Shown: piece after piece, positions 1 to 53,707 of the stretch
Layout: each line of letters opens with the position of its first letter
How positions within the stretch are numbered: the stretch's first letter is position 1
NCBI GenBank assembly: GCA_948567375.1
Contig: OX419755.1
Location: 49,742,291 to 49,806,290, forward strand
DNA: 64,000 nucleotides
Source of the DNA: Lunularia cruciata
Taxonomy: Eukaryota; Streptophyta; Marchantiopsida; Lunulariales; Lunulariaceae
Direction: 5' to 3'
Program-made: the position numbers and the translations under genes
Notes under the pieces: generated by a model
Database searches by the model: none
The model's input: only the letters and a program-made list of their open reading frames with translations
Told to the model about the DNA's origin: nothing

Positions 1-23
1 CCACTCTCCCTAGTAGCTACTCG

Positions 24-1245
24 CTATGTCCCAAGAATAGCATGTCCACTCGGTCCATCACCCCTAGCATGTGCTTGAATTGTCTCGATAGGCACAGGGC
101 TCATAAGTGTCAGAGTGGTGATGCCTATCAAGTGCATCCTATGTTGCTCTGCCAAGCCAAGGCTCATAATCCAGGTCAAACAATTCAGGTCCATAGCCTG
201 ACCTAACACTTGACGCCTGGATGCCTCTTACACTACTAGAATAATGGTAATCCCGGTGCAAAAACCCATTGCCCGCTCTCTCTCATCAGCATTGAGCTCC
301 ACCAACTGTTGTAACTGTGAGTCCCAAACAAGTTTAGGTCCTCCCTCTCAAAAAGCATGAGAAGAGCATAGAAAACTCATGAGTGTGGGAAATGCGGCTC
401 TAGGCTGTCCAACTAGGTTCACCATTGCCATAGGTGACCTATTAGCCACTACTACTGTCTGACGCCCAACATCCAAGATATTATCAACAAGGATGTGGTC
501 AAGTTGTTGAATCTCATCATAAGCACGTTGTAAAACCTCTCTGTGTAAGAGGTTTGTCCACCAAAGATAAAGATGATGAGCCCGTGATCCCACTCTGGCT
601 GCATCTAACAATACAACAAGTTCCATCCAAGAATGGACCTGATGTGTACTCACCACCACTCTGGTGCAAGAATCACCTATCAAAGGAACTTTCTCTAAAA
701 GGTAAGCTAGAGAACGGATTGATGAACCTAGAGATGTTGTAGTATCCGTAACATCTCCCAAAACACACCAGAATGAGGATACTAAAGACCCAAACCTCCA
801 CCCGCACGTGTATGTCCCTGACATAGCCATCTAGAAATCACTAAGTGAATAGGCCCATGTCTCTCTAGATCATGCACCCCCAGTAAAGAATGTTTGTTGG
901 TAGGGCCTTTTGGTAACCTCTAACTGCTGACATTGGTAATAACTCCAGATACCAATAGACCAAGTGTGCCACATGATGTAGAGAGACTTGCCTAGCAGTC
1001 TCATCTCTCTCTACATACAACTACCTCTGGACTTGTATACCCGCTTGTAATACCGCAACTAGTCAGGTGCTAATCCCACCGAACAACTCCAATAGACATA
1101 TCTCCTCTATTGGATACTGCCAAGCAATGAGTGTGGTATCCCGAGGTGTCAAAATAATTGACTCTAGAGGCTTATCCTCACACTCATTTGCCGATGGTAC
1201 AAAGGCTCCACTCCAAGCTTGTTGCACCACCTGATCTGCATGCTG
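24..1245 (-). pseudogene. DNMT3-like cytosine-5 DNA methyltransferase domain inside a retrotransposon (degraded)
   Basis: Enzymes of this family transfer a methyl group from S-adenosylmethionine to C5 of cytosine in DNA. The conserved motifs occur in the right order. Motif I reads LLELFGGIST (about 1062-1094) and is followed by a DNMT3-like GIQVQR..YVE stretch. Motif IV reads LCQGHTRAGGG (from 829), where PCQ is expected; one C-to-T change would give the Leu. Motif VI reads LLEKVPLIGDS (687-695) instead of ENV. Motif VIII reads GSRAHHLYLWWTNL (about 550-592). Motif IX reads RERAMGF (about 259-283) and motif X RRQVLGQAMDLNC (about 180-207). The reading frame changes around motif IV, and there are stops after motif I, near 349 and near 230, so it is not translatable. 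It lies directly downstream of the protease region with no start of its own, which suggests it was part of the element polyprotein. DNMT3 similarity rests on the motif I context and motif VIII; DRM-type permutation is not seen. Confidence 0.82.
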
Positions 1246-2586
1246 CTATAACGCCTCCTTTGAACTCCACAATGGAACATCCAAGGTGGATGGAACAATC
1301 CCACTTGTACTCCAAATCCAAGTGATCTCCTCTGGTATTGGAGTATCCTCTTCATGGGCATTCTCCTCCAACAAGTCACCAAGCCAAGTAATTGCACCAC
1401 TGAAAGCATAAACTGATGTTGCCATGGTCCCGGACTGTAGTGAGCCAAGACTGCCACTACTGAAGCGTACTAGTAGGCGACATACCCATCCCTCACTAGA
1501 CTGCCAACCTGGTCTATAGGAGATTGTCTCCTCCCAATAGTCAATATTGAAACCCATGGGGCATAACACTACTCCCCCAACTAGCACATCATATGACTCA
1601 TCTATTGTCACAATAGCCTGAGCTCTCACCACCGAGCTATCCATTGGATGACCAGGCTGAACCTGGACAACAAGCTCTCCATGTGTGATGTATTGTGTCA
1701 AACCACCACCTAGAGATGTTTGGATCTGAAATAGACACCTCTCCACATCGGCCTTCCATAACTCTAGACCGACTATTGTAGCCTTCCCCAACATAAGGGG
1801 CTGCGCACCGGAGTCTAACAAGACTCTCTGTGGTGTATAGACCTTCCCTGAAGGTCCCACCAAACCAAAAGTCCTCCTTTGGTTATCCAATAGGATAACA
1901 CCAAGTGTGAACTGTGCTCTCTCAAAGGCCGGTCTAGCCGGCAATTCCTCCAGTCTAGCCGTTGTTGCCTACCATAAACCACTAGTTGCTGAATGGATCC
2001 CATGCTCCTCAACCAAGTCAACTCCACTATCAACCACCTTTGCTTTAGTAGTAGGAACCGCATCATCCCTACTCTCACAAAGCATGGCAGCCAACCAAAA
2101 CACTAGGGTTGGGTCAACTCCCAATGTAAACATGTCACTGGCTGAAAACAAAGGGCATTGTATAATCAGCTGAGAGGCCCCCAACATTGTGCTAAACTCA
2201 GTCTGTGTAGTAGTAGGTGGCTGACTAGCAAGTAGTCAATCATGCACTCTATCACTACCTACCACACCTGCACTGGGACGTCTAGGAGCCATGGATATTG
2301 TCTGCAATGCCTCAAATAGCATGAAAGACTGGGGAAGTCTAACATGTCTCCCAACCTCTCCTCTTTGTTGGTCCAACTCCACTGATGCTCCTCTAGGCTC
2401 TGGAGCACGTACTGCACTCCTAGTCATTTCTACAGACGCATCCACCTGTGCTGCTCCGCACATGAAGTCCAAAGCATCTCTATCACCAACATAAGAGGTG
2501 GAAGCCTCATCACCCAAATCTGATCTCCTCTGAGCAATAACCATACTAGCCAATCTCTGCTCCAACTGCTCAATCCAAGTAGCCAT
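1246..2586 (-). pseudogene. Retroviral-type aspartic protease region of the methyltransferase-bearing element
   Basis: One frame runs from about 2586 to 1246 with stops near 2236 and 1969. The catalytic loop reads RVLLDSGAQPLML, the D-S/T-G-A signature of the single active-site aspartate in retrotransposon proteases, which act as homodimers to cut the Gag-Pol polyprotein. A second conserved stretch, YDVLVGGVVLCPMGF, sits about 100 residues later and corresponds to the flap/C-terminal part of such proteases. The frame differs from gag upstream, which fits either frameshift expression or decay. The stop at 1246 separates it from the methyltransferase start, although the frame continues open for about 60 codons afterwards into methyltransferase motif I. 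This suggests the two were once one continuous reading frame. Confidence 0.75.
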
Positions 2587-2597
2587 AACTATATCAA

Positions 2598-3901
2598 AAG
2601 TAAGAGCATGTACTACACTCCTAGTAGGTGTAGATCCTCTACTACCACCTCTACCACCTTGTCCTCTATGAATTGGAGCTCCTCTACAACTTGCCTAACA
2701 ACCCTACCACTCCGTAACTCCGGGTGTAGGTCAAAACACCGATCACTAGTGTGACTAAATCTATGGCAATGCTCACACTACCTATGTGCTGGCTGTGATG
2801 CACCAGAGGTATCAAGTCCGCTGCCCTGAGTACACTCTCTCCGATGGTGAAGTCCACCACAAGTCCAATAAGCAACACCACTACTTACTGGTTGCTACTG
2901 ACCCAAAAATGAAGGTAAGGGTCTAACTACAATAGGGCCTCCACTCATTCCATAGGACCTGGGCTGTCCACCTTGTCCTCAAAAACCAATTGGGCATGGT
3001 GCACTCTGCTGCACTCTAGAAGAAGTCATAGCCGTGGATGAGGTCTCCCTACCAAATCCAGATATCATTACTCTCTCCTCCACCATGTTGAGCTCAATAT
3101 GCTCAGCCAAACCAAAGACCATTGCCAAAGTAGGCAAAGTAGCCTGTAACAACGTAGCATCACGAACTCTACATTGCAACTCCCTGTCTAGTATCCCATA
3201 CCAAAACTAGACTTGTTGGGTCTCAATCACTCCTTGAGTGAAACTGATCAGCCGCCTCATGCAAGTGTATGCCTTGCATAGGCTCTCTCTAGCCTTCCGC
3301 TGGAACTCTTGCAAGCTTCTTAGCTTGTCAGTCTGCACTCCTTGGTAGTTCTGCCTCAAACATTGGAAGAACTCCACCAAGGAGTTAAACCTCGGTACCA
3401 CACCACCTCCTCTAGTGGTACCTCCACTCGTGGTAACACTATCTCTAGCTAGTGCACCTCCACTATCTCCACCAACACCACTCGAGCTAGAACTCATGGG
3501 TACATCCAATCTACTCCTAGCAACCAAGCCTAAAGTGATAGAGATATAGTTCAAAGACCAATACTATCTCCATAACTCAATCTCTTTCAAATGAGCTCTC
3601 TTGAACTCATGGTAGTCATCCATCAGTGGACCCTCCAAGTGCTGAAACAACCCTTACATGCCATGAAAGGTGTGAATAAAGTTGGGTTCCGCATCTACTG
3701 TAGATCACACCAAGTATCAAACTCATGGATGAAGTCATCCAACTCAATGGTACCCAATGTACCAGAGTAACATTTAGAGCCTTTGGAGGCCCCATAAATC
3801 TTGTCCATGTCCCACAACAACGGTGCAAACACGACAAGTGCACTCTCAATTGGATCAACTCCTGTGTCAAACTCTAACTCAAAGTCAATCTCCTCTCTCA
3901 C
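2598..3901 (-). pseudogene. Gag (capsid and CCHC zinc knuckle) of the methyltransferase-bearing element
   Basis: Gag packages element RNA into cytoplasmic particles. Acidic N-terminal text (MREEIDFELEFD, from 3901) is followed by a low-complexity Ser/Gly segment, then a helical capsid-like stretch (FNSLVEFFQCLRQNYQGV.., about 3405-3210) typical of the Retrotrans_gag family. A nucleocapsid zinc knuckle is intact at 2736-2777: Cys-X2-Cys-X4-His-X4-Cys with residues CEHC....H....C. Capsid and knuckle are in the same frame; the N-terminal part is in another and there are stops between. The chain from gag to protease to methyltransferase on one strand is what ties the methyltransferase to a retroelement rather than to a host gene. 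Confidence 0.72.
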
Positions 3902-4043
3902 TAGGACCTAAGATACAAGCTGATATTGAGCGCCACTACGAGAAAACCCACTACGTACTATAGGGCTATCTCCTCTAGAATCTCCAAAGAACTCCATCGG
4001 TACAAAGTAATTGCAACTACAACCGCAACCGCAAACTGCAACA

Positions 4044-4190
4044 ACAAGTACCCCACCAAGTGCAAAGACTAACCAAGCACCACCAAGTACCAACACCAAT
4101 TGAGCACCACCAAGTGCCAACACCAACCAAGCACTACCAAGTGCCAATACCAACCAAGCACCACCAAGTGCCAAAACTAACAGACCATTA
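4044..4190. repeat. Degenerate 27-bp tandem repeat in element leader
   Basis: About five units of a 27-bp motif built around caccaagtgccaa. On the minus strand it is open and would encode a hydrophobic nine-residue repeat (LVLALGGAW), but this is probably a chance reading of a minisatellite in the 5' leader of the element. Confidence 0.7.
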
Positions 4191-4532
4191 TCCACTAATG
4201 TAACTCTAACCAAGACAACTACACTAGGAGCAAGGACACCATGTAACCTACCATCACAACGTGCATTCTCACAGTCTGCAGGTCATCACTTCTTTCCTTA
4301 CCAGAGAGAAACAAGACAGTTTGACTAGTCATCACTGTAGCCTCACTATTGAGAACACACCAGAGCACAAATGCTCAAAATTCAAGGCACCTCACACAAA
4401 TACGGTGCACAAACATGAAGTAAAGAATGGAGGGAGTCCAATCACAAGAATGCTAAACAACAACATAAATTAACATCTCATCTCATAAACATAAACAACA
4501 TAAATCCCATCTCATAAATTAACATAGGACTG

Positions 4533-4544
4533 ACTCTGCCACCA
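4533..4544 (-). other. Primer-binding site, tRNA-iMet-like (methyltransferase-bearing element)
   Basis: The minus strand reads TGGTGGCAGAGT. This matches 9 of 12 positions of the usual plant LTR-element site complementary to initiator Met tRNA (TGGTATCAGAGC). It starts two bases after a CA-ended LTR edge at 4547, the canonical spacing. Confidence 0.5.
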
Positions 4545-4546
4545 TT

Positions 4547-5320
4547 TGGTATTTGACATAATCGAAGTACCTATCTACTTCTTGAGCTACGAGGATCATC
4601 GAGGATTCAAGTTCTTCTCGCCAAAATCTGACGTAAAATCTGACATAAATCCCTAAAAATAGCTGACATAAATCCTCAGCTAACTCTTCACTTGAGCCAA
4701 ATTGGAAAAATGTGTTTCATCCAATCTTCAATTCACGAGGATCTGCTCCCAACTTCACCTTCAATTTTAGTTTTTGAGCTCAACTCGTAACAAATTGGTC
4801 TTGAGCTCAAAATCACAACTACAACTTGAAAATTGCTTCTTCCTTGGCTCTAAATTTTGCCAGCGCTTCCACACACACACTCTCTCAAGGAAATCTGATC
4901 TACTCGATCAAGATACCATGATCCACCGAGCTTGGAGATACCACCAATACTCGCAATTCCTGCACCCTATTCCCCCCTAACTCACTTCTTTGATGTAATC
5001 AGATTGTTTACAACTCAAATCAATTGAACTCAGATCAATACTTGATATGATCCTCAACAAATTGCCAACAATTGGGCACTGATTACAATCAAGCCACACC
5101 CACTCTGGCTAAGAGACTCCAGGTGATGCTCACCGGCTTTTTGTCCACTCTAGCCAGGAACTCGAAGGCTCAACATCAAAGAAGTGAGCTCTCTGGAGCT
5201 ACACTTCCAAGGTATACTCCTGATTTTGACCTAGGTCTCATCCCAATGGTCCCATTGACAACACACCCAACGGTGTAGATGGTGCAAGTGATGGTGGGCC
5301 CCACCATGAAGTCAATACCC
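4547..5320 (-). repeat. 5' LTR of the methyltransferase-bearing element (edges approximate)
   Basis: The inner edge is set by the adjacent primer-binding site: plus strand TGGTATTTGAC, so the sense strand ends ..CCA. The outer edge is placed at GTCAATACCC (5311-5320), an imperfect inverted copy of the inner end, just before family B protease text begins. The second LTR lies outside the window, so neither identity nor target duplication can be checked. Confidence 0.42.
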
Positions 5321-7805
5321 TAAACAAAAAATCTGACCGTCGGAAAGTAGTCTATGAGTAATAGCCAATATGCCTCTAACTAGTAACACTAGAACTCTAG
5401 TGTCTGAGCAATCTAGATGCGACACTACAAATGGCATGACAAGTTTGTAGTAGCTCACTACATGATAATACCATTCTAGGTCTACCTTGGCTTGAAGGTC
5501 ATAAGGTTTAATTTGATTGGACCAAACAACAAATTCAAGTACAACATCAAGGTAAGAATTATTAATTAGGTTGTTTGGCATCTTTGAGTCAAACACCTAA
5601 GAATAGTCAGTCCCAAGATGTGAAATTTGTTAGTATAGCAACTATAGAGTAAGTTTTGTAATAACATATTCTTGTTTTTGTTATGTGGATAAAGCTAATT
5701 GCACAAGGAGAAGCGGACGAGGGTAAACAACCTCAATAAGCAATAGTTGATTAGATAGTGAAAGAAATTTTAGATATATTTATGGATGATCTTCCAAAAT
5801 GATTACCTTTTGATTGAGGTATGCCCTTCAAGTTGTTGCTAGGTAGTACTTTTTTAAGTAAGCCAATCTGTAGGCTCTCACCAAAGGAGTTAGAAAGACT
5901 TCAAATAACATTGACAAAGTTGTTGGAGAAAGATTTCATACAACATAGTATATTTCCCTGAGGACCACTAATACTCTTTGTACCAAAGAATGATTAAGGA
6001 TTCAATTCTATTTTGACTATTGTGGCCTTGATAAAGAGCCATGAAGATTATATATCTCTTGCTTTCAATTGATGACTTGTTGGATCAATTGAGTGGAGAA
6101 TGAAATTTCTCCAAGTTGTATCTTTAAAGTGGCTATTGGCAAACTCTCATTGATAGGGAGGATGTACAAAAGACTACCTTTTGCATGAAGTATGGGCATT
6201 TTGAGTGGATAGTTTTACCTTTTAGGGTCACTCATACTCTAGTAGTTTTCATATATCAATTACACCAAGTGTTGGATGTGCTATTAGATTAATAAGCAGT
6301 AGTGTTCTTGGATGATATTTTAATCTACAATAAGATATAGGCAAAACACAAGAATCACATATGAGAAGTACTAAGATGACTATGTCAATGGAAGTTTTGC
6401 TACAAGAAGTTGAAGTGTGCCTTTTGGCAAAAGGAAATAACCTTCTTGACTAAGGTCTAATCAGCGGAGATCAAGATGGAAGAAGAGAAATCAAGGCCAT
6501 TATTGATTGGCCTAATCCTAAGGATGCCATGGAATTGTAAGAATTTAATGGATTGGTGAGATTTTATCAATGCTTTATCTACAACTATGCTCATATAGCC
6601 ACACCGTTGACCAATCTTTTGGGGAAGACATCAAGTTGTTAGTACAACACCAAGCACAAGAAGCATTCAAGAAATTGAAGCAAATGATGTCTTCATGACC
6701 CATCCTCCAACCATATGATCCTCAACTACCTTGTGTGGTTGATTTTGATACTTCTAACTTTGCTATTGGAGCTGTGTTACAATAGGAGTTTCTAGATGTG
6801 TTACTTCCCATTACCTTTGTGTCTTGCAAACTAAACACCATAGAAGGAATTACTTTGCTTAGGATCAAGAATAAATGGCAGTGGTATATGCCACAAAGGT
6901 ATGGAGACATTATCTCTTGAGGAAACAAGTGATCATGTGAACCAATCATAAACCTTTTTTGTAGGCCTTATAATTGGAACACATGGAAAGTTGACATCAT
7001 TGATAGGAGAAACACCTATAATTTTTTGACATCAAGCTTGATTACAAACTCAACAAGTTTCATGTCATCCATGATGCCTTATCACAATGACTTGATTTGA
7101 AGACTCTTCTTGAATCTCTTATAATAGCAACAATTCTAATAGTGTTAATTGACTCAAAAGTCCAAATCAAGTTGAGAGCTGCTTTATAGCAAGAACACTT
7201 CTTTCAGTTGGTACAAGGTCATGTTGCAACACACAAAAAGGATTACAACACTTTCTCCTTCAAGGAAGGCTTTCTATTCAATGAGAATTGGATTTATGTT
7301 CCAACCAAGGGTGGTCTATGACCTATAAGGTTATAATAGGCCCATGACTTACCTACCAATTTCTGTTCATAATGAGTGTAGACAAGACTTTGGGTACCCT
7401 ATAATGTTAGTGGTGATGGCCCAACATGGTATGAGAGGTTCAAGAGTTTGTCTGATCTTATGAGAGCTACCAACAAAGCTAGTAACCAAAAGCCGAGTGG
7501 ACTCTTTCAACCACTATCAATTCTATCTACCTATTGAGAACATGTAAGCTTAGATCTCATCACATCCTTACCAAAGATGGACCACAACCATTAAACCATT
7601 GTAGTGTTTGTTGATAAGCTCAACAAGCAAATTCATTTGGCACCTACCATGGATACAATTAATGGTCCAACACTAGCCTAGATCTACTTTGAAATCATCT
7701 TCAAGCACCATGGGATGCCAAGGGTTCTCCTCTTTGATCAAGATCCTTACTTTATTAGTAAATTTTGGCACCCACTTTTTAAACTCCTTGGTACCAAGCT
7801 TGTGT
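5321..7805 (+). mobile_element. Family B Ty3/gypsy pol remnant (protease to integrase), heavily decayed
   Basis: Plus-strand text matches, in order, the family B element seen on the minus strand at 42-56 kb. It begins with the end of protease and its GCLASLS...NSQSQD linker (about 5420-5620). Reverse transcriptase runs from PICRLSPKELERL (about 5860) through [13 protein letters not shown] to the catalytic FLDD box (6305-6316). RNase H follows at about 6640-6960 (QPYDPQLPCVVDFDTSNFAIGAVLQ reading), then the integrase core at about 7400-7800. Many stops and frame changes make every product defunct. The 5' LTR and gag are missing because the methyltransferase-bearing element abuts on the left; the integrase C-terminus is missing because a family C LTR fragment abuts at 7806. 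Confidence 0.8.
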
Positions 7806-7910: not shown

Positions 7911-9131
7911 GCTTCCATGGCTTCAATTTTCAATTTTGTAACCTTTGAAAATTCCTCCCTAAATGTTGAAATTGTGGAAGAGGAAGGTGTCTTCACACAA
8001 CCAACTTTTCTTTGGTTTTATGACTCATTCTCCTATTCTCTATCTTTTTTTCACCTTCTAGCTCTTTTCTCTCTCTACCTCTCTCTTGTGATTGAGGTTC
8101 CTCTTTGGTAGGTGTACTTGGTTGTGGGAGGAATTCTTATGATCTTGAGGGCTGAAAGAATAGATATCAAATCTCCTCCACTTGAACTAGAATATGGCCA
8201 TCTTGTATTCATGGTCCTTGACAAATTGGTTCTTGGGTACTACAAACAACAAAATTAACCTGATGGTTGGTAGTTAGTTCCTGACCTAGAGGTGTCCTTG
8301 GTCCAGTCTTCAATTGGTCATTCTAATGAAACTTGATATCCCAATTCCTCATTTATGACCATTTTTTAAAATTCAATTTCCACACCTAGATTCACAAGGG
8401 CAAGGGATGAAATTTTGGCTTTAGTCCCAAATAGAAAATCCATTCTTGCATAATAAGTGCATTGATGATTCAACTTATCTCCATTCTTGCTTCAATTCCC
8501 TCTTTGTGAGCCCTTTGCCCCTACACTTGTCCTTCTATTTGCATGTTGATTTGTAGGAGGAAATGTAGTGAGCACACTTTTTGTATAAATTTTATGTGCT
8601 CATAGATTCAAAACCTTTGCAAAACTTCACAAGGTAGGTGGCCATGTAACTAAAATTTACATTTTTTTGAATAGGTTCTTACAAATCACTTCATGGATTT
8701 TATGAAAATGTTTGGGGTCCTCAAGATAGTCCAAAATTTGACTATAGTTGTGAAATACCATTCTAAACCTATCTTTATCTTTATCCTTCTCCTCATCCCC
8801 TACTTTTGTAAAACCTCCAACTATGGAAAATTATCTAGGTGTATCAGATACCATGTTCAAAAGATGTTGAAATCCTAAAATTGACCAAGGAGGTGAGGTG
8901 GAATGAAATGTTGAGACTTGGGTGGAATTGATGCAAGGGTGGAATGAAATGTTGATACTTGGGCAAAATGGATTGGTAGACAAGGGAGTTGGAAAATTGG
9001 CATCTACATGCTAGGAACTTTCTATATTTGCTACCACATGCAAAATTGCAAAGCCGGTGCAACATATTTACATTTCTCCTTCTCCCATTCTCCCAAATAC
9101 CAATGCATTAATATGTCACATCATTGTATCA
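7911..9131. other. No gene recognised; degraded AT-rich DNA
   Basis: Only short open stretches without recognisable motifs. A roughly 55-bp partial duplication of a ggaatgaaatgttga-containing unit occurs at about 8899-8965. Probably old transposon-derived sequence. Confidence 0.5.
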
Positions 9132-9136
9132 CTTGG

Positions 9137-9876
9137 TGTAATACCAAGAGCTAGCCATATGATCTAGATGTGAAATTTGGTTTGGTAACATCTGGAATGA
9201 TGTTATACATGATTTTTAAAATAGATCAGATAGAAGTATCACCAAAAGAGTACTTCTACTAATAGGGCAAAAAGCAAAATAGACTTGAAAACCTTAGAAC
9301 CAATAGCTAGACATATGACTTAAAGGTGAGAATTGGTTTGGTAACATCTAGAAGGATGTTACACATGATAGACTAAGCAGATTAGAAAGAAGTATCACCA
9401 AAAGGGGACTTTTACTAATAAAGTAGGAATTGAAATATGCCTGAAATCTTTGAAGGTAATTTTGGAGGCCTAAACGGATGAATTAGGCCTCAAAAATGTG
9501 CAAGTTTTTCCACTCCCAAAGAACAAAAGGCTGGCCTTCCCTCCCATTGGTTTGTCTTGTCAAGAGCTTTCCAACAATACCTCATCCACGTGATTATGAG
9601 ATTCCTATAGGAAGATTCCCTAAAATATTCCCTCCAATCAAAGCTTGTTTGACCAACCAGATAGGACCAGGACCGACATGTCACACATCCAAGTAAGTAA
9701 TCCAAGGGTGGAGCTTGCTAACATGTCACCTATCTGTGTGCCTGATCCTATGGAGGAGCTTCCTTGGAGGAGATCCTCTTTGTCTATATAATAAACAGAA
9801 GGTGCTCCTTTGGAGCATCGGATGATTGAGTGTAAAATCTATGTTTTCTCTCTTCTCTTGTCCTCGGAGTATTACA
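9137..9876 (+). mobile_element. Family C solo LTR with perfect 5-bp target duplication
   Basis: The unit starts TGTAATACC and ends GGAGTATTACA, with palindrome-like LTR termini, and is flanked by CTTGG at 9132-9136 and 9877-9881. Its 740 bp match, in reverse orientation, the LTRs of the full element at 46703-53296. No internal element sequence is present, so it arose by LTR-LTR recombination. In its sense direction (plus) a TATA-like ctatataataaa lies at about 9782-9793. Confidence 0.93.
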
Positions 9877-19790: not shown

Positions 19791-22700
19791 TCACTTCCAC
19801 TTGTCTCCAAGTTCCTTCTTTCCTGATAGGACCCATGTGACGACTATCCCAGCAACCAGCGCCACAATTGTAATAAGCAGCAACGCATAACTGAAATCTT
19901 CTGTTAAGGAGTCGTACGTGCGAGAAGGGGCGGTCCGTGTATAGAACAGGTCGAGACCATACGCGAAGATAAGGGATGTAGACTCCAAGCGTGCTGGCAC
20001 TGTCAAAATGCCTCTCAGTCCTTCGACTTGATGCACGTGCGTGAGGTACGACTGTCAATGGCAAAGTCCACATGTCGATCAGATCACAACAATATATATA
20101 TACCGATAGACCTTGATCAATAAATAGACCAAAATAGAGCTGAGTTACGAACACAGAACCGTTTCCTTAATTAGCAAGAATCCAAAACCATCGATGGAAA
20201 TGAATTACCTGAGGAAATATGGGGATAGCATCAGTCAAAGGCATGATTCCCTCTTCTAGTTCGGATTGAGACGGCCTGACGGTTCGCCTCGGATCAAAAA
20301 ATCGTCTATCTAGTGCTAAAACCTGCACAGAGAAATGGAAAAGTTATGATGGCTTTGTCATGAACCTCGGAATTAGGTTGATGATTCACTTCTTACTTCT
20401 GCAAGATGGTACGATATACAACTAGCTCACGAAAATGTCTCGATTTGTAAACCTTGTAAGTTGCAGAGCTCAGAAGAAAAAATATATGAATTAGCACACG
20501 AAGCATTCTAATCTGAGTTTTCGAGGACACTTTCCTTGTGTCCATATATTTGAGTCAGATACTTCGATATTTCATTGCCCACCGTAGTTTGTTATAGTTG
20601 TGTAACCTTTATACATTACTTACTACGAAAAAGAATTCGAGTCTTCGTGTAATTATCTTGAAGATCAGAATCTTTTGATCTTTCTTCCGTCCATACCTGG
20701 TCATTGACAGTGCCTACGAGGATATTCTTCCCTGTGATCCCTCGCGCAGTGGAGGTTACGGTCATGGCCTTCACACTGTATGTGAAGAAGTACGTCTGGG
20801 TTTTCACGTCAATGCTTGGGATTGAGTATGACGAAACCGGGGAACTGGCATTGTGCCTGCCCAGCATCAACTGTACCACTCCTTTATCACCCTGCCAAGC
20901 CAACAGCAAACCTCAGCTACAAGGTGAAGCAGAATTTTGACTCTGGTTGGCTACTGTTCTCCATACACTCAGATGTCCAGAGATAATAGGATGGCACGGT
21001 CCGATCTTATCACTGCGCCAGGACAGATGTGTGCATGGGAGGTAGAAGAGAGTCAGTAATGTACGCACCACACGAATCTGATCGTAGAGCTCGATCACCG
21101 ACATCTCACATCGATACATTTTCAAATTGAAGTAGTGGTAAACAACCCAGTTCTCATTGAATACCTGAAGGGATGGCAATTATGCATCAATACACAACAG
21201 CCACAAACTAGCTGAAGAACAATAAAGCATCGTCTCAACTTAGAGAGATCTTAGCTAGATACTCCACTAGAAAGTTACTTGACCGATAGGACAAACATGC
21301 ACTAGGTTGATGAATCCTACCGCATAGACGGGCCCTTGCATAGATGGGTATGTCACTCGATGCAAAACTCGTCCGGTTACAGTGTCAATAAGATAGGCGA
21401 CAAGTCCCGCTTCTTCGGGGGTAGCCTCTCCAATATGTCGGGCTGCCTTAGGTGTGACAGTCGCTACAAATATCGAGTTTTTGTTCAGATACTTATAGAG
21501 GACATCACGGCTGCCAAGAATCTTACTCTGTGTATGTACAACCTGCGATCACATACACGGATGTATCAGATCAAATGCTTCCGCGACAAAACCAACGTCT
21601 AAAGGAGTATGTATATAGACTCGGATGTATCAAATGTCATACTTCTGCTGGGCTACCCGACATGTGGTGATGGACATTCCACGAACTTGCGGTGAAGTTC
21701 CTCACCTCATCCGACTTTCTCGAAACCACCGTAGAAATCACTTCTGTCTCTTGGGGAAATATAACCGACCATACCGGCTCTGTGCTGAACACATGGCCAT
21801 CTGTTTCTCGGCCTTCAACGTCATCACACATATCTTTGATGGTGTAGCCAACAATTGTACCTTTCTCCTTGTTGACTAGATAGTAGAAAACGTTTGGTTT
21901 GTGTGCCAAGAACAACGAGAGACTTTCCTCTGTGGCTGGATACACATGAGCTTTTAATTTGTCGTCAACAAGAAGGTGGAGTTGCTGTTCCGAGTTATCT
22001 TTAATCGGAAGGGGAATCACGAGTTTGACGGGGAAGTTGAGCTTCAAAGACTTTAGCTCCTTTCCTCTGTAGACATCCACCCAAGATAGAATCCCGGTAG
22101 CATCAGGTCCAGATTGAGTCTTTCCCACTACCAACACAACGGGATTTTCATCCAAGGCATGCTGATGAGGAACTTGCCATGCCATCAGTTTAAGTGGGAC
22201 AGCCGTAATTCCAGACTCTACACGCAAACCAGATAGAAGAACAGACCACACGATTCGGCCATCTCCTGTGTGCAAAGCAAGAATCTTGCCAGCCTTTGTC
22301 AGCACAATCAAGAGCTTGCGGAAGCCATTGTGGTCTCTGGTCATTTTGGTCCTGTCTGAACTATGCAAGCGCAAGGCTTGAACTGCAACGATGTCCTCTG
22401 AACTGGCCAGAAACAATGTAGCCTTCAACTTCAGCCAATGACCCTGCACCTCGAAGAAATAAAGAGACTGAGCAAAAGACTGAAAAAAAATTTCCCATGC
22501 ATAGGCCCGTGCAAAATTCGGTAGTAAAGAGGAGACTAGAAATCACGGGATGATTATTATTACCTTCAGCCATGCCGACAAATCATGCTCAACTTCAGAC
22601 ACAGAATGTCCATCTCTTTCAAGAGGCAGCTCACTGGTCCATGTATCAACGATGGAAGCAAGGCCATCCTCGCGCGTCCATACGACTTCTCCTTGTTGTA

Positions 22701-25557
22701 GTAGGGCCAGCGAGTCGTCTTCTGCTACAACTAACGCTCTAAACCCATAGCTGCGATCTGTTCGAAGATACGCGTTTAGAAACACCTTCTTGATCACTCC
22801 TCGAGGTAACTCCAAGCTGACGCGATCTTTCACAGCATCTGCATTCCAGTTATCTGTGTAGACCACTCTAAGCGAAAATTTCCCCGCATCTGATCCATCT
22901 TCACCTTTCTGTACTATAGCCGCTGCGTGCTTGCTATCTACGACGTTCAAAGTGTTACTCAAAATGGCTGAGTTCTCCATAACCTCCAATACGCCCAGTT
23001 TAGCAGATACTGGATCAACTTCAACCACTACCAATTTCTCATTCACCTCAAGAGCTACTGCCCCTTCTAGGCTTGTAGGTAAGAGCCTGCTACCCTTCAC
23101 CTGACCGGAAACAAGGTCTGATAGGGGAGTTTCAACAATTTTAACATTCCCGTCTGTTTGAATGAGGGCTGTCACAACAGTCCGGGAGTCAGAGTCCAAA
23201 GCAACAGCAACACTATTGACAAGCATAAGCTCATCCGTGGACAATCTTTTGGTGATGCCGACTGGGGTGGCCTTTCGAAAGTCCCCAGAGCGCAGATCGA
23301 TATCCACAACAACTAGTCCAGAAGTCCTGGAAAATCCGACACCAGAAAGGATCCCATCGGTTGACAGGCTAACTTTCTTGATGACAAGGTCCTCTCTGTA
23401 TTATTACCACGTCAAAACGAGGCAACATCTGTTAGCCATGGACATCAATCGTCGATTTTGCACTATATCATTATTTCTACTTTAAAATTGCAACCGTTTA
23501 TCCCACAGTACACCAGAATTGATTTACAAACTAACAAACAGTCTACCTATTCAGGATAAAGTGCCGACGTATAATTCTGGAAGAGACACCAACGCCAAAG
23601 TTCTGAATTGAAGGAACTCTTTCCGTAGAGTGAAGGCGTAAAGTCGAGCAGAAATGATGATCAGAGGCTGTTACATTAAAAGCATAAGTAAGGTTGCGTT
23701 CAAATACCTTACAGACTGCAGACCTGATTCCCAAATTATACTCCCATCAATGCTGGAAAGAGCAAACAGCACACTCCCGCTAAAGATTAGAATATCATTC
23801 GCCTTATCATTGTTGATATCCACCTGTGGGTTGGACAAACGAGAGTGATCAAGCAGCAACGCGAAATGCTACAGCACTTTAGATTGAATGCCTAAACAAA
23901 TTATGTCAGTTCAGATCTGCAGAACACGTTATAACTTACCGACGTAGAAACTGTTTATTATAAGGCTACTAGGACCGTATTAACCCAACCAAATCAGCAA
24001 AAGGACATGAAAATGGAAGGACCTGGAACAAAAGTTGTATGTTTAAACAAGAAAAGATAGTACCGTACAGGCAGAACAAGTAAACTCGCCGCAGAGCCCA
24101 AAGACGATTGAAGAAGAGATTCCCAGACCAAAGCACCATCTGGAAGATGCCAGGCTCTTACACTGCTGCCCTTCTTGGACAAGGAGATAACATCTGCACG
24201 GATGATATTTAAACATACACATATCATGAGTTGTTTTCTTCCTGTGTGAAGTTCCAGACGAATTGCAGCTTTACAACAAAAGAATCGGCAATGACAAATA
24301 TGCCGCAACTTATTCCTGGTAATAGTCACTTGATTTCGTTGCGGGCAGATCCCTTTCAGCTAACAGTATCTCCTTCCACTTCACCAAATACTTCGTCCTG
24401 TCCACTATGCACGCTTCTCCCAAATGGAAGTCACACAGGGGATTAAGTGCTTAGAGGATGCATAACTTACATTTTCCGAGAATTAGATCTAGAGCGTTCA
24501 CGGAGTCGGCCTTCCCCAAAACCCGTCTCCAGTCTGTCATGAGCATATGACCATCGTCAAAGCCATAAACTAGAAGCAAGGTCGAAGGACGTTATGTCAT
24601 AGTTGAACATCCATCCACAATGGTTGAAGCCAAGCCTATGTACGTCTGTTGCTGAATCCTACGACAATGACCTCTGACTACTTTCTTTTCTACTTTGAAT
24701 CTATTTCTCCGTGTAGAATACGTATGCATTAAACAGCTCTAACAAGGCTCAAAACTTCGGCTGTGGTAAAGGATATCGCGGTCACTTTGATGGCAATCAT
24801 GCTTATAGTCCCAGCTTTATGTGTAATGAAAGTGGGCAACACATACAGACTTCGCCAGTCCGTAGGTTGAGAGATGCAATCGCATTTTCCTCGGTGGCAA
24901 CTATGACACGCTTCCTCCCACTGCCTTGAGTCTGGAAAACGGCATGTCTCACTTTGCCAATGTACTGTTGATGCCTGCATCCCGTTTTCGGATTAACAAA
25001 GGTGGAAACAAGTAATCCAACATATCAATCAACATCGCCTGCACTCTTCGATTTGAAACTCAAACCGGAATTCACCTGTGCATCTACCACCTGCAACTGC
25101 AATAGAAATTTCGCCATTGACTTTTGCGGTAGATCCAAAACTTGGGTGTTACGGGTGGGATCTTAGACGTAGGACTAATCTTAAATTCCTAAAAGTTCAT
25201 TCGATCAACTTGTTTCTGAAACCCTATCGTTACTTCGATAATCAGCAAACATCCAATTGAACGTTCCAACGTTTTGAATTTACCCATAAGGACCTCAAGT
25301 TTCAAAATGAGCTAAGAAGCTTCACTTGCTCTAAAGACCCATTCTTGTTGTGTAACTGAGTAATCAGATGCTACCAACCCATAACAGTAACTGACCCTAC
25401 CACAAAATGTCCAAATTCTGTTTCTCAAAAGAATCAGTGTCCAATAGTACCAGTCCCAGACACCAGCTTGATCCTCATAGAGAGCCTCGCAAGAGATCCA
25501 GACACTGAACAAAATCAATAGTCCAATCGTCGCCCGCTGAAGCACTGGCAAATTCAT
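19791..25557 (-). CDS. EMC1: EMC1, ER membrane protein complex subunit 1 (13 exons)
   Basis: EMC1 is the large lumenal/transmembrane subunit of the ER membrane complex, which inserts and stabilises membrane proteins. Exons, 5' to 3': 25557-25451, 24974-24847, 24533-24471, 24193-24069, 23823-23713, 23602-23547, 23395-22564, 22443-21706, 21542-21321, 21164-21069, 20891-20697, 20322-20209, 20051-19791. All joins keep phase with GT-AG borders and sum to 3048 bp, 1015 residues plus stop, close to the family's usual length. The start gives a signal peptide (MNLPVLQRATIGLLILFSVW..) followed by LYEDQAGVWDWHQQYIGKV. PQQ-like propeller text follows (GEVYWRRVLG, RAWHLPDGALVWE, TRDHNGFRK, LHTGDGRIVWS), then the C-terminal DUF1620 region (DTVTGRVLHR, NENWVVYHYFN, VEGLRGILTVPARLEST, AYGLDLFYTR). 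Near the end is one membrane helix (YALLLITIVALVAGIVVTWVL split as read) and the tail KKELGDKWK. Exon 6 is chosen only by phase and may be wrong or incomplete; the donor at 21069 could be 3 bp away. Confidence 0.93.
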
Positions 25558-27018
25558 GGCTGGCTCCGACTTCTTTTTTTTCCGGCTCCAGCAGCAACCC
25601 CTATCCTTTCATGTCCTCTGAGGCAACAAGATGCAAAAGTCAGGATACTCCGATGAAGATACGTCGATTCTGAACATCGGGAGAGGTTGCTTCAAGAAAT
25701 GCAATAAAGTATTGCGATCGAGTACAGTATAGTACCATATTAGCCGGCCGTAGTTCCACAACTGCGAAGCCCGCCCGATGCTCAATTAAATTTGTGCTCG
25801 GCAGGCAAGAGAAATGGAAGGAAGGAAGACAAATGCCCAACTCGTCTGTCTAAACCCTACGAACTTGTCAAGATGTCAGTCAGGAGAAGAGCCACAATTA
25901 TCCTATTCGTCAGTCTTGGGAGATCCGGCTCATTTTTCCCGACATCCTCATAAGAAGACTCTGATGAAGATACGTCATTCTACTGCATATTTAACCAAAT
26001 CTCCGATATCTTCCATCGAGCATCCGGCTATAAAAGTTTACGTCTTTCGTCCGTCAGTCCGTCAAAGTCGGAATCGGGAGGTTTGTTTTATGTCCTTCTC
26101 TGATTCAATTTCGTAATGTTCTACGGAGCGCTGCTGCTGCTACGATTGACTGAAGTGACTCAAGAGCATACGTACAAATACTTGTTAGTGTCAATGTTGT
26201 GGGAAGGAATTTTGTTTCTGACGTCTGATTTGGAATGGAGAATCTGCAACTATTGTTGTTGGGGCTGTCCAAGCATCCAGGATGACAGAGTGAGCTGCCG
26301 GTCAGTGTCCATTAAATTTTCATGAACTTTCCAATTGAGCATGTAACTGGGACTTCCTAGATCGGATATCATGTGAGATAGCTGTAGATTGCAGGGTTAT
26401 CAGAAGAAGGTCTTGTTTGGGTTTTATTCAGCGCAGGACAAAGAGCGAGATAACGATTCCTGGATTCAATTTCATGATACATAGTGGTTGTGAGAAATAT
26501 TTTGAGTTCGTAGACCATACTATAAGCATTTTCCTGTTTCTCCTCACGTCAAACACGGGAAACGACTTGCCTACGGTGTATTGTTATCAAGTATAAGAAG
26601 CTGTTGTGAAGCTTCAGTAGTCTTTAGGTACGGTAAGACAGGCTCAGTTTTAGCTCTTTCCAACTATACCTGGTAATTTCCTGCAAGGTTCAAACCTTCG
26701 AATTCGAAATTCTTAGGTTTAAGTTTTTCTGGGAGAGCAATATCCCACGATGTTCAGAAGCGACACCGCATTAAGCTTTATGTTCTTCTTTGTCTGCAAG
26801 TATAGCAGTAGATTTTGGTCTCGGGGAAACCCTTAACTTGCTGGAGCACGTCGAAGGAAGGGTGGTCCATAAAAAGAGTAAGAATTGAATCCCTTCATGA
26901 AAATCAAGTTTTGTATCCTGCATGGTTTAACTTGTGTCGCTTTTGTTGCTGCCGCAGAGTGTAGATCGGAACATTAGAATCAGAGCAGACAGCGGACCTT
27001 TGAAGGACTTAGGTCCTG
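25558..27018. promoter_or_regulatory. Divergent intergenic region between EMC1 and the PRCC-like gene
   Basis: This 1.46-kb stretch must hold the promoters and 5' UTRs of both divergent genes. No further gene is recognised. A perfect 14-bp direct repeat, gatgaagatacgtc, occurs at 25652-25665 and 25963-25976. It contains an ACGT core of the kind bound by plant bZIP factors and lies 95-420 bp upstream of the EMC1 start codon. No clear TATA box can be assigned to either gene. Confidence 0.5.
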
Positions 27019-28714
27019 GTGATGGATTTACTTGCCAACTATGGATCTGACGAAGAGGATGAAGAGTCGACGAAACCGCCAATTGCGATGCCAAGTTCCT
27101 CTAGTAAAATCTTCTCCCTTCCACCTCCAACGAGTTCTCCTCAGGTAAAACGGGTTAATGATGTGCCAGTAATAAAAAATGTCCCTCGCTTTCCATCCTC
27201 AACTGAACCTCAAGTAGAAGAAAGGACTCTTCCTTCGGATTTCTTCGAACAAACGTCAAGAGTGGCCAAAGTATCTGTGGAGGGCCGGGAAAACCCTTCG
27301 TCCTTGTTCTTGCAGCTGCTAGCTACTTCGTCTTCCAAGTCTTTACGTGCCCACTTACCCCCTCCATCAAACTCGAAGTCGAAAAAGAAAACGGTGGAAT
27401 TCAAGCCTCCGGGTAACTTTTCTTTGTTAGAATCCAGAGATGAAGATGACTCAGAACGCCGAAAGAAACGATCTAAGGTCTCTGAGGAGAGCAGAACAAG
27501 AATTGAAGGAAAAGTTGGAGGTTTGACTGCTCTACTTCCACCCCAAAGAATAGCTTAGGGGTGGGACAAGCGTTTGGAGGAGGTGGAAGTGGACGTCGCA
27601 CCGCAATGGAAACTGTTTCAGTTTCCTCGCGAATCGCCAAGGAAGCTAATACGTTCGAGCGGAGTGCGCTAGACAAGGAGAGTGACAGTGTGGCACCGCC
27701 ATCTGCAGGAAGTCTGGATGCACAGATGAGGCCACATCCAAGTACTCGATTCCATTACTCTGCCCAACCAGGTCAAGGTCATATTGCACCGGAGTCCCTT
27801 AATTGCGAACCTGAAGTACGAACAAATGAAGGGCACTTTGCAGAATACCAGCAATATGCCAATCAATCTAATGGACACCAGGATCAAGCAAGCTGGCAAT
27901 ATTCAGATGCTTATGGAGATGCAGCGGTGCTAGTTTCTGCAAGTGTGGTCTCAGATCCTCTGGCCGAAGTATTGCAAAGGGAACGGAGGAAAGGCAAGAA
28001 TGAGCCACCGCCACAGGTCATAGAGGTCAAGCAAGCTGAGCTTACCGGGGGAAGACTTCGAGAAGATGAACTTCGCACCACTGGAATTGCTTTCGGACCA
28101 TCCTACCAGGTTGACATCCACCCTCCTTCTATCTCGGCTTGGCTCCATGGTCTTAGGGCTTTTGTTAGTAGCTAGCATTGATGACAGACATTATCAAAAT
28201 TGGTCTATCACCTCCTTCCTTACTATTCCCTTCTCTTTTATATCAAGACCAGACGTTCTGATACGGGTTACTGCCTAATTTACTCAAGTAGTGTGTGCTT
28301 TTCTGTGATGGAACTTAGGTGCTAGTCCAGTAGTTCCCGTGCTCCTACTTAAAGGTTTACCTTGCACATTGAGCACATTGCAGAGTTAGTTAGAGCCTAA
28401 TAAGTGTCCTAGTACCATTTGCTTCTACTCATAGGAGTTGTCATAGGCTATTGCAAAACTCTTGTGCAACTCTTGTGATCATTATTGACAGTTTTTCGAA
28501 GTCCAGAAAACCTGCCTCGCTGACGAAGTTGATCCGTCTTGACATCTTTCAGCCAGTGTCCTCGGGTAAAGATAAACCGTCGAAGATCCATAGGAAGAAG
28601 CATCAAATTTGAGCATTGTATTTCGACATGAAGTCGAAAGAGATGGAGATGCTTGACCGTCGTTCTAAAGGCAACTTGACGAAAGCCGAAACTCATGCAA
28701 AGTATGGTTGGTAG
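27019..28714 (+). pseudogene. PRCC-like (proline-rich, mitotic checkpoint/splicing-associated) gene with two disabling lesions
   Basis: PRCC proteins are nuclear, low-complexity factors associated with pre-mRNA splicing. Exon 1 (27019-28109) begins MMDLLANYGSDEEDEE, typical of the family, and carries a KKRSK basic patch. It changes frame at a run of four C (27541-27544): the upstream frame stops at 27556, while the conserved continuation (KNSLG..GQAFGGG..GRRTAMETV) is open one frame away, as if one C were missing. The exon ends with GIAFGPSYQ at a GT donor. Exon 2 (28553-28714) resumes in phase after an AG acceptor. It holds the family C-terminal block: KPSKIHRKKHQI, then TGA at 28610-28612 where Gly is expected, then ALYFDMKSKEMEMLDRRSKG and the terminal AETHAKYGW before TAG. 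The protein would be about 417 residues if unbroken. Either this is a recent pseudogene or the sequence has two errors. Confidence 0.85.
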
Positions 28715-42379: not shown

Positions 42380-44316
42380 TCTATGCATTTTGGAGGTGAG
42401 AAAGAGGTTCCCATGTGGCATCATGAGGAGATACTCTTTCTAAAGGACCTTGTACTCTGTATGTTGTCGATGGCCACGTTGAATATGGTGTTGTGCAAGG
42501 ATACGATCAACTTTGTACTCCTCATGATCATTGATAGGGATAGGAGGAGGGAGAGGTTGGACTCAAGAGGAAAAGGAAGAGGGGTTAGGAACAAAGGGTT
42601 TCAACTTGGAAACATGAAAGATAGGATGGATACGCATATGACAAGGCAAGGCAAGTTGATAAGCAACATGAGAGACAATTTGGGTGACATCAAAGGGTCC
42701 TATCCAATTAGAGGCAAGTTTATAAACTTGGGTATCAAGGGGAAGAGGGAGGTTACTAGAGAATAACATGACTTTATCACCGACTTCAAAGGTGAGATCA
42801 CGATGATGGTGATTCGTATATTGCTTTTGACAATTTTAAGCAACAAGGAGGTGAGATTTGGCTTGTTGGAGAGATTGGGATATAGTGGCCAAGAATGTTG
42901 AAGTATGAGGAACCTAAGATGGAAAAGGAGCAAAAAGAGAATTTGGAACAAGCGGATCTTGGCCAAAATTGAGAAAGAAAAGAAAAAATCTGATGCTTGT
43001 CTATTTGGAATTGTTGTAGGCAAATTCTGCAACTGCAATACATTCATCCCAATTGGTATGGTGGATATTGACAAAGGCATGCAGCATATCTTCCAATGTA
43101 TGATTTGCATGTTCAGTTTGTCCATCAGTTTAAGGATGATAGGTTGTGGACAAAGCAAGCTTGGTTCCGAGTATCTGGAAGAGTGCTTGAAAAAACTTGC
43201 CGGTAAATTGAGGATCACAGTCGGAGATGAGTACATGTGGCATCCTATGATGCTTGAAGACATTTTCAAAGTAGATTTGTGCTAAGGTTAGAGCATCCAC
43301 AATATCACAGATTGGTGCCAAGTGGATTTTCTTACGAAGCTTATCCATAAACACCACGATTGTTGTGTGTCCTTGCTTTGTCTTGGGCAAGGATGTGATG
43401 AGATCCAAGCTCACATGCTCCCATTGAGCAAATGGAATGGCAAGTGGTTGAAGGAGTCCACTCAGCTTCTGGTTGTTGGTCTTGTTGCATTGGCAACTCT
43501 CACACGATCGGACAAATTCTTGAACATCCCACGTCATATTGGGCTACTACCATCAACTTTGGAGGGTACCCAATGTCTTGTCTACACCCATGTGACCAGC
43601 TATGGGCAAATCATGTGTTCATGTGTTCATGTGTTCCAAGTGTAAGGTCTACAACAATGGTTTGTGATCAGTTTGCATGATCACTTGTTTCTCCAAGAGA
43701 TAATGCCTCCATACCTTGGTGGCATATACCATTGCAAGTTGTTCTTGATCTCGAGTAGAGTAGTTTCTTTTAGTTTTTTTGAGTTGGCAAGACACAAAGG
43801 CAATAAGATGTAGTCCATTTGGGAATTCTTGTTGCAACATGGCTCCAATTGCAAAGTTAGAAGCATCAAAATCAACCACACATAGTAGTTGAGGATCATA
43901 CGGTTGAAGAATGGGCCTTGAAAACACCAAATGTTTCAACTTTTAGAATGCTTCTTTGTGCTTGGTGGTCCACTGGAAGCTCAAGTCCTTCCCCAATATG
44001 TCAATCAATGGTGCAACCACATGAGCATAATAATGGATGAACCGTTGATGAAATTGGCCAACCCATTAAATGCCCATACTTTTGTAGTATCCTTTGGAGA
44101 AGGCCAATCAGTAACTGCCTTGATTTTCTCCTCTTCCATCTTGATCCCCTCCGATGAGATCTTGTGCCCCAAGAAGGTAACTTCCTTTTGCCAAAAGGCA
44201 TACTTTGACTTCTTGTAGTAAAATTTCTATTGTTGTAGTCGTCTTAGAAATTCTTGCACATGATTCATGTGTTCTGCCTCTATCTTGTTATAGATTAAGA
44301 TGTCATCCAAGAACAC
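42380..44316 (-). pseudogene. Family B pol, 3' part: end of RT, RNase H, integrase, chromodomain
   Basis: This resumes the RT after the 2.2-kb insert with the catalytic VFLDDILIYNK box (FLDD at 44302-44313). RNase H follows at 43939-43649, with VVDFDASNFAIGAML and NYSTRDQEQLAMVYA. The integrase zinc-binding and core region is at about 43640-43130 (CESCQCNK; VFMDKLRKKIHLAP; LISDCDPQF), where the DDE aspartates read D..D. The GPFDVTQIV..VAYQLALP module is at 42769-42563. A chromodomain-like tail (EYKVDRILAQ...ATWEP with a frame shift) is at about 42545-42395. Stops and frame shifts separate the parts. The chromodomain tail places the element among chromoviruses, whose integrases are steered to chromatin. 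Confidence 0.85.
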
Positions 44317-50284: not shown

Positions 50285-50556
50285 TTTCTCAAGAACTTGT
50301 CCATCAAGTGGTGCACTCTAGACTTCTCTTATTAGACCTATGAAACATCTATCAATCTTATAGACAATTGCCGTCCCTATGACATATAGAGGCAGAATCT
50401 ACCTAGGTGATTTTTCTTTAACCCCAATGATTGACCATTTGTGGGTTCTCACTACTGTCTCCCTCCAATTTACCATAGGGTTGTAAGCTCCATCCATGGT
50501 ATGCCTAAGATTGCATCATAACAAGCTAATTGTATCACTCTCCACTCAATTGCTTC

Positions 50557-53296: not shown

Positions 53297-53707
53297 ATTT
53301 GCCAATAGTTGCTGCAAAGATCAAGCTTGGAAAAGTATCGTGCTCCACTCAATTGATCAAGCAAGTCATCAATCCAAGGCAAGGGATATGCATTCTTCAC
53401 TATTTTCTTATTAAGCCCACAATAATCAATATAGAAACAAAATGCTCCATCCTTCTTTGGAACGAATAGTATCGGTGCTCCACAAGGAAAGGTACTATGT
53501 TGTATGAAGTCCTTCTCCAACAACTCCATAAGTGTTGTTTGCAATTCCTCCAACTCCTTCTGGAGAGAGACGATAGATTGGTCTACTCATTGGAGTACTC
53601 CTTGGCAATAACTCAATCTTGAAGGGCATACCATGATTGGAGGGTAATCCCTTTGGCAGATAATCCAGAAACAGGTCCGCAAACTCCTGAACTATTTGAT
53701 TAAACAT
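53297..53707 (-). pseudogene. Family B RT, N-terminal part, broken by the family C insertion
   Basis: The frame has FADLFLDYLPKGLPSNHGMPFKI (53707 down), then after a frame change [24 protein letters not shown], the fingers region, [13 protein letters not shown] and [13 protein letters not shown], ending at the ATTTG junction. It continues at 46702 on the other side of the family C element. Confidence 0.88.

Follow-up and report, generated by a model that had tools for sequence, protein, structure and literature searches.

We identified, on the minus strand of positions 1–5441 of the window (the whole 64,000-nucleotide stretch of Lunularia cruciata DNA analysed here), the decayed remains of a Gypsy-type retrotransposon that belongs to the KnitGypsy-Dnmt3 kind and in which gag, an aspartic protease and a predicted DNMT3-type DNA methyltransferase share ORF1. 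The family is very numerous in the window's genome. We favour the reading of a land-plant element of this kind whose enzyme would be borne in the particle and methylate cDNA, whose integration would be steered by a PHD finger and whose ends would derive from a circle; taken as a whole, we hold this to be probable without regarding it as secure.

Architecture and decay of the window copy

The whole copy measures 8,431 bp (G000:C1:49739301-49747731), of which 2,990 bp extend past window base 1. The window contains the following features:

1–5441, minus: window part of the element; the element ends at TGTC (window 5441) and GACA (L013 1302)
5442–5445, minus: target-site duplication, decayed (AACT here and AACC at the opposite end, 3/4)
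4996–5441, minus: 5′ terminal repeat A1, starting with TGTC (alignment to its own A2)
3–4072, minus: ORF1, broken, gag–protease–methyltransferase (tblastn, query the open 1428-aa ORF1 from a genomic copy)
2736–2777, minus: gag CCHC zinc knuckle (pattern scan and comparison with copies)
1249–1968, minus: aspartic protease region, frame still open, LLDSGA ... YDVLVG (motifs and genomic matches)
53–1137, minus: DNMT3-type methyltransferase, inactivated (DNMT3A scan; end points from ORF1 codons 990–1352)

As an earlier note on this DNA had proposed, the gag CCHC knuckle, a DSGA protease and the methyltransferase lie collinearly on one strand (minus), about where that note had placed them. The tblastn pieces of ORF1 run over 4072–3641, 3689–2697, 2694–877, 889–713 and 713–3 and are 67–82% identical to the open frame. 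Because the minus frame 2694–952 is so poor in stops (5 in 581 codons, against a mean of 29.7 and a minimum of 15 in the best of three frames of 1000 Markov sequences), we conclude that the end of gag, the protease and motif I once formed one polyprotein. The gag knuckle CX2CX4HX4C (CEHCHRFSHTSDRC) reads from 2777 down (−) and is the sole match of this pattern in the six frames of the window, where 0.14 are expected by chance (maximum 2 in 100 Markov shuffles); all of the 20 copies compared share it without a single change, bar the window's own S for G.

The protease motif LLDSGA starts at 1821 (−) and is followed 70 residues further by YDVLVG in one open frame. Pfam did not recognise the window protease piece and a PDB search with it returned nothing relevant. 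A Pfam-supported gypsy protease piece also lies at 54 kb of the window, and similarity of the element protease to it was not significant (48/300 shuffles score equally high). With support from neither Pfam nor the 54-kb piece, the identity of the window protease rests on its motifs and on its frame, which has stayed unbroken elsewhere in the genome (25 of 26 other copies). An AlphaFold model of the protease piece alone reached a mean pLDDT of 35.5 and was set aside.

The copy in the window is dead, which the earlier note had not noticed: the methyltransferase contains 6 stops and 2 frame-breaking gaps, with LCQ instead of PCQ in motif IV and EKV instead of ENV in motif VI. C>T decay is alike at CG (37/164) and CHG (82/373), for which host enzymes could account. 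Reverse transcriptase (RT) or integrase of the methyltransferase element was not found within the 64-kb window; an RT-RNase H and an integrase stub of this copy were found past base 1, outside the window. A1 aligns with its own A2 (L013 1402-1844, outside the window) over 444 bases at 87.4% identity, and is about 80–81% identical to the A2 of four other copies. A candidate LTR at about 4540–5430 with a primer site at 4533 proved wrong, the repeat being 4996–5441.

Sequence identity of the methyltransferase

Pfam returned no methyltransferase match for the window pieces or their frame-joined read-through, and the case was therefore built on a frameshift-tolerant scan and then on other copies. 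Scanning both window strands with the human DNMT3A catalytic domain placed the best match at minus 1101–188 with a score of 105, compared to a mean of 56.4 (sd 4.1, maximum 66) for 60 shuffled DNMT3As. In the same scan, M.HhaI and a DNMT1 piece each scored 57, at chance level (equalled by 23/60 and 13/60 shuffles, respectively). The open enzyme of a genomic copy matched DNMT3A best in the PDB (1e-9), followed by DNMT3B/3C; these three make up 29 of its 47 matches, including every match better than 0.05, while HaeIII reached only 0.059 and DRM2 0.12. The Pfam search suggested earlier was blank for the window pieces and gave, for the open copy, a PF00145 match of 2.1e-4 (21.3 bits) just below the 22-bit cut-off and a weak Retrotrans_gag match (0.08).

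Aligned with human DNMT3A, the element enzyme is about 31% identical (78/253, score 141) with all motifs in place. Their order is I, IV, VI, VIII, IX, X; motif I precedes the rest, and the domain is unpermuted, unlike DRM, as had been claimed from the window letters. We therefore assign the enzyme, by sequence, to the DNMT3-type C5 methyltransferases, DNMT3 being its nearest relative among them, which upholds the earlier DNMT3-like rather than DRM-like call. Motif IV is PCQ in 24 of 25 copies, not PCN as in animal DNMT3A; it is also PCQ in the host's own plant DNMT3. That host DNMT3-type gene occupies a separate locus (L052) of the same genome, where it appears to contain introns and to have DUF3444 behind it. 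A better alignment to this host gene was looked for and is absent, the element enzyme scoring 75 against it and 141 against human DNMT3A.

Copies and coding capacity of the family

A first look through the 566-Mb genome gave 11,687 candidates for the element protease, and 150 of 150 scored places matched at E≤2e-129 over nearly the whole length. Of 26 further copies, 25 have a methyltransferase region (≥90% of codons) downstream of the protease, and a copy whose full sequence was read carries gag, protease and methyltransferase in a single 1428-aa frame with RT in another frame; the linkage in other copies that the earlier note had asked for is thereby found. Among 25 further copies, mostly chosen for long open frames, the methyltransferase is open in 16 and broken in 9, and the motifs are kept as PCQ in 24, ENV in 25, GSRAH in 24 and WWTN in 24. 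Differences between repeats within copies amount to 125 of 6572 sites for A1 and A2 (18 copies) and 19 of 2031 for B1 and B2 (19 copies), a similarity that suggests recent activity. A tblastn search for relatives in viral_contigs and genome_contigs found none.

Behind ORF1, the fully read copy encodes a Gypsy RT-RNase H and an integrase. Pfam identified PF00078 (6e-30), PF17917 (1e-36) and PF17919 in pol of one copy, and PF17921 (3e-16) and PF00665 (7e-11) in the integrase part, which ends C-terminally in a predicted PHD finger (PF00628, 7e-11). Judged from these Pfam domains, RT-RNase H followed by integrase is the Gypsy-type order. The gypsy-type label given by the earlier note is supported, with the qualification that the terminal repeats are DIRS-like split repeats rather than plain LTRs.

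Split repeats and target duplication

In 18 of 20 copies the repeats are arranged as A1...B1-NN-A2-B2, that is, as split direct repeats, where a Ty3/Gypsy element would have two identical terminal LTRs. The B1-A2 junction reads GACA-NN-TGTC in 18 of 19 copies and forms a full palindrome in 15. The ends are TGTC...GACA (TG...CA), and an exact 4-bp target duplication flanks 17 of 18 other copies, which points to a DDE integrase; tyrosine recombinases are not known to leave such duplications. Termini and duplication of this sort agree with a Ty3/Gypsy element. The rve integrase and the target duplications thus set the element apart from tyrosine-recombinase DIRS elements. A primer-binding site for initiator tRNA-Met was not found (47 matches at ≤3 mismatches, 54.4 expected), nor was one seen by eye.

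Solely from the anatomy of the repeats, we infer a two-LTR circle model. Reverse transcription would yield ordinary LTRs with the layout B-NN-A, the cDNA product would circularise with two LTRs, and this circle would be opened by the integrase at the inner palindrome GACA-GC-TGTC; opening there would produce exactly A1 ... B1-NN-A2-B2 and the 4-bp duplication.

Relation to known elements

In 2018, retrotransposons that carry methyltransferases were described from dinoflagellates (SymbioDIRS-Dnmt3 and SymbioLINE-Dnmt) and a single charophyte alga (PMC5890265). The charophyte report that the earlier note mentions exists, and its element is close to ours. KnitGypsy-Dnmt3 of Klebsormidium nitens is described as being under purifying selection; its enzyme gave no methylation in yeast, a result its authors call inconclusive (de Mendoza 2018, PMC5890265). 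Matched by description, our element belongs to its kind: both combine an unpermuted, intronless Dnmt3-type enzyme with Gypsy domains and DIRS-like repeats (PMC5890265). They differ in (i) the host, a charophyte there and a land plant here; (ii) apparently the position of the enzyme, said to be in the Pol polyprotein frame there and after the protease in the gag frame, with RT separate, here; and (iii) the PHD finger and target duplication, present here and absent from the description of KnitGypsy-Dnmt3, the main text of which mentions neither 'PHD' nor 'protease' (PMC5890265).

SymbioDIRS-Dnmt3 shares with our element a retrotransposon setting, a Dnmt3-type enzyme and split repeats, and its enzymes perform de novo CG methylation in yeast, but it is a tyrosine-recombinase DIRS element of Symbiodinium, a dinoflagellate, whereas ours has a Gypsy RT and a DDE integrase (PMC5890265). 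SymbioLINE-Dnmt, also from Symbiodinium, likewise carries a cytosine methyltransferase, although of an orphan class and in a LINE (PMC5890265). Plant DNMT3-DUF3444 genes (PMC6453930) share the DNMT3-type catalytic domain; unlike the element they are host genes, and the one in this genome apparently has introns and DUF3444. Of the further reports, as far as their accessible text goes, in one a PHD protein figures solely as an adjacent gene of the host (PMC3286476), and the other describes orchid Gypsy elements with an m6A demethylase domain (PMC9289625). PMC5890265 and its citing papers apart, the freely accessible journal literature searched turned up no methyltransferase-bearing retrotransposon in a land plant. 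As far as this search reaches, the non-flowering plant host, the gag-protease fusion, the PHD integrase, the target duplications and the palindromic inner junction are new.

Proposed function and alternatives

Being translated in one piece with gag and protease, the enzyme would, we infer, be packaged and carried in the particle beside reverse transcriptase. There it could methylate cytosines of the new cDNA, or of the freshly inserted copy; new insertions would then resemble already silenced chromatin, at lower cost and with less detection, and the PHD finger may steer integration according to the state of the histone H3 tail. Methylation of the element's own cDNA appears to be the likeliest function.

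The enzyme could instead be a passenger or structural part whose catalysis the element no longer needs. Its pooled Ka/Ks of 0.48 exceeds that of RT-RH (0.35), protease (0.31) and gag core (0.33), it is broken in more than a third of the copies even though most were chosen for long open frames, and the proportion of its variants that are non-synonymous is not significantly lower for shared (27:20) than for single-copy ones (80:37; Fisher p 0.21). A neutral insert should, however, resemble the gag-protease linker (0.94), and the near-invariance of motifs IV and VI and the retention of every motif at such a distance from DNMT3A argue against this reading; we regard a passenger as unlikely. Somewhat less likely still is that the enzyme targets host chromatin, as the earlier note had suggested it might, or competing elements and not the element's own DNA: a free DNMT3-type enzyme from so numerous a family could reach the whole genome, but synthesis inside the gag-protease frame suggests confinement to particles.

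For the ends, a DIRS-like recombinase supplied in trans would explain a layout that is that of DIRS elements, yet the exact duplications, the TG...CA termini and the element's own rve integrase make this improbable. We reject the chance neighbourhood of a host DNMT3 gene or pseudogene and an unrelated gag-protease remnant. Such a coincidence might be read from the window alone, with its broken enzyme and no RT, but it is next to impossible given the same arrangement in nearly all further copies, the one continuous frame and the separate host DNMT3 locus.

A bolder version of the favoured reading describes a self-contained epigenetic retrotransposon that packages a de novo methyltransferase together with its cDNA, reads H3 through the PHD finger of its integrase and acquires split repeats from a two-LTR circle that an ordinary Gypsy integrase opens at the palindrome, and would extend this account to the whole KnitGypsy-Dnmt3 kind and make it a main force in a land-plant genome; we consider this version tentative and rather doubtful.

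Implications

How a DDE integrase would make split repeats is a second question, for which the circle model predicts a junction that ordinary sequencing could find. Recent land-plant copies with open enzyme genes and a PHD finger would make self-written epigenetic marks testable in a plant. Land plants are also better served with methylomes, mutants and transformation, which makes the benefit that retrotransposons may draw from carrying a methyltransferase testable there.

Evidence for a DNMT3-like methyltransferase in the window

All parts of the Gypsy-type retrotransposon in the window (the element) lie on the minus strand. A Pfam search of these pieces gave no match, and the CCHC knuckle is unique in the six frames of the window (0.14 expected by chance). 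The minus-strand frame 2694-952 contains 5 stops in 581 codons, compared with at least 15 in the best of three frames from 1000 Markov sequences; no other part of the window is equally open, apart from the region of the EMC1 gene. Near the gag start, at 4053-4187, lies a 27-base tandem repeat of four copies.

We scanned both strands with frameshift tolerance. A DNMT3A piece peaked at minus 1101-549 with a score of 79 (200 shuffled controls: mean 51.4, sd 4.7, maximum 69) and the whole DNMT3A catalytic domain at minus 1101-188 with a score of 105 (maximum of 60 shuffles, 66), whereas M.HhaI and the DNMT1 piece peaked at other places in the window, at chance level. The scan agrees with the earlier note, in which the methyltransferase looked DNMT3-like. 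A frame-joined read-through gave 17 PDB matches up to E 10 (best 0.0095), 16 to DNMT3A and one to DNMT3C.

The remainder of the window contains the following features:
21637-24359, minus strand: EMC1-like host gene with long exons (PDB EMC1, 7e-14 and 4e-6)
27013-28175, plus strand: long open frames starting MDLLANYGSDEEDEE, without a Pfam match; they resemble a plant PRCC-type gene
47565-50317, minus strand: second, different Gypsy element in pieces (RT, RNase H, Tf2-1-like SH3 domain), its RT ~33% identical to that of the methyltransferase element
53692-54339, minus strand: Gypsy protease piece (PF13975, 2e-4)
42935-44328, minus strand: further Gypsy RT and integrase remnants
5800-7700, plus strand: very old Gypsy RT remnant (CpG observed/expected 0.05)

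The flank directly outside the 5′ end of the element (5443-5600) is 84% identical to 53969-54127, which indicates that the methyltransferase element is inserted in another repeat.

Copies across the genome

We searched 565.8 Mb in 74 contigs; eight large contigs (60-85 Mb) make up 558 of 566 Mb. The protease region yielded 11,687 candidates at first look, a number too loose to serve as a copy number. All 150 places scored reach E 2e-129 or better; one of them is the window itself, and the other 149 are 84-87% identical. The RT gave 54,379 first-look candidates, among which other Gypsy families are to be expected, and the 84 scored are 97-100% identical.

In one fully read copy, ORF1 (1428 aa) encodes gag with its CCHC knuckle, an LLDSGA protease and the methyltransferase (LFGGISTGL, GWPCQG, LENVPL, GSRAH, WWTNL, ending ERVMGF...VLGQAMD), so that the linkage claimed previously recurs outside the window. 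RT-RNase H (513 aa; RVT_1 6e-30, RT_RNaseH 1e-36) and integrase (417 aa; Integrase_H2C2 3e-16, rve 7e-11) follow downstream, the integrase with a C-terminal PHD (Pfam, 7e-11). We fetched 20 copies, hand-picked from the 150 for an open ORF1 of 1131-1431 aa, which biases open fractions upwards: both long frames are open in at least one, and RT-RNase H and integrase form a single 1037-aa frame in two, a length also found at many of the 84 RT places. In the stretch L010, a second element copy lies inverted beside the first (52-1567 and 7949-9464; 1516-nt arms, 94% complementary).

Split terminal repeats and target duplications

The split terminal repeats are arranged with A1 on the left and B1-A2-B2 on the right in 18 of 20 copies; of the two exceptions, one has lost most of A1, and in the stretch of the other the right end is missing. 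With these left out, identical 4 bases flank the exact TGTC...GACA boundary in 17 of 18 copies; in the eighteenth and in the window copy, three of the four agree. The B1-A2 spacer is two bases in all 19 of 19 copies, and the junction in 15 of them is the perfect palindrome GACA-GC-TGTC; three read GACA-AC-TGTC and one GACA-GC-TATC. In the four copies inspected, B1 is preceded by a G-rich tract.

We propose that the true LTR is B-NN-A: opening a two-LTR circle at B-NN-A would give exactly the genomic layout, and B-NN-A would be regenerated in a transcript that starts in A1 and runs to A2. This circle model goes beyond what the sequence proves.

Age and decay of copies

Over 18 copies, the divergence between A1 and A2 comes to 125 of 6572 sites; between B1 and B2, over 19 copies, it is 19 of 2031. 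The window copy, at 55/443 and 7/100, is therefore an old insertion. It spans 8,431 bp, with RT-RNase H at 84-88% identity and an integrase frame reduced to the first 77 residues. At sites where 12 other copies agree, C>T changes amount to 37/164 in CG, 82/373 in CHG and 84/1359 in CHH, and T>C changes to 36/1841. The C>T excess at CG and CHG shows past methylation of this copy in those contexts, whatever the enzyme.

Kinship, source and selection of the enzyme

The open enzyme gave 47 PDB matches up to E 10, 29 of them DNMT3A/3B/3C (best 1e-9); the remainder are HaeIII (0.059), DRM (0.12) and HhaI (0.25 and worse). PF00145 scores 21.3 bits, under the cut-off of 22. In a survey of 25 copies (26 looked at, one left out for coverage), the frame is open in 16, and PCQ is retained in 24, ENV in 25, GSRAH in 24, WWTN in 24 and LFGGISTGL in 22. 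Pooled Ka/Ks over 20 copies is 0.48 for the enzyme, 0.31 for protease, 0.33 for gag core, 0.35 for RT-RNase H, 0.63 for integrase and 0.94 for the gag-protease linker. Non-synonymous to synonymous enzyme variants number 80:37 in single copies versus 27:20 when shared, a difference in the direction of selection that is not significant (Fisher p 0.21).

The host has its own DNMT3-type locus:
L052 (a stretch of the same genome) 3300-5889, minus strand: DNMT3-type locus with DUF3444, motif IV being PCQ, not PCN

Its motif I-IV and VI-X pieces are in different open stretches, with DUF3444 (30.6 bits) behind them; the published distribution of DNMT3-DUF3444 (PMC6453930) excludes an angiosperm host. 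A methyltransferase closer to a host gene with start and introns of its own would have counted against the earlier claim. Aligned with the enzyme of the element, human DNMT3A scores 141, M.HhaI 79 and the host gene 75, whereas the host gene scores 333 with DNMT3A; recent capture of the host's DNMT3 gene is thus unlikely. An old capture, or a source other than the host gene, would fit these scores.

Known relatives

The charophyte case mentioned in the earlier note exists: de Mendoza and others (PMC5890265) describe Dnmt3 in Gypsy elements of K. nitens which, like the present element, have DIRS-like repeats, and streptophyte and dinoflagellate cases are repeated in PMC12344493. A full-text search of open-licence literature found no land-plant case. 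The Lunularia cruciata assembly is given as 580 Mb, with bursts of Ty3/Gypsy, in PMC9985172. This kind of element is already known. As far as the open-licence literature shows, the present one is set apart by its host, by the fusion to gag and protease, by an integrase with PHD and by the evidence from target sites, although the alga's element may have some of these features without their having been reported.
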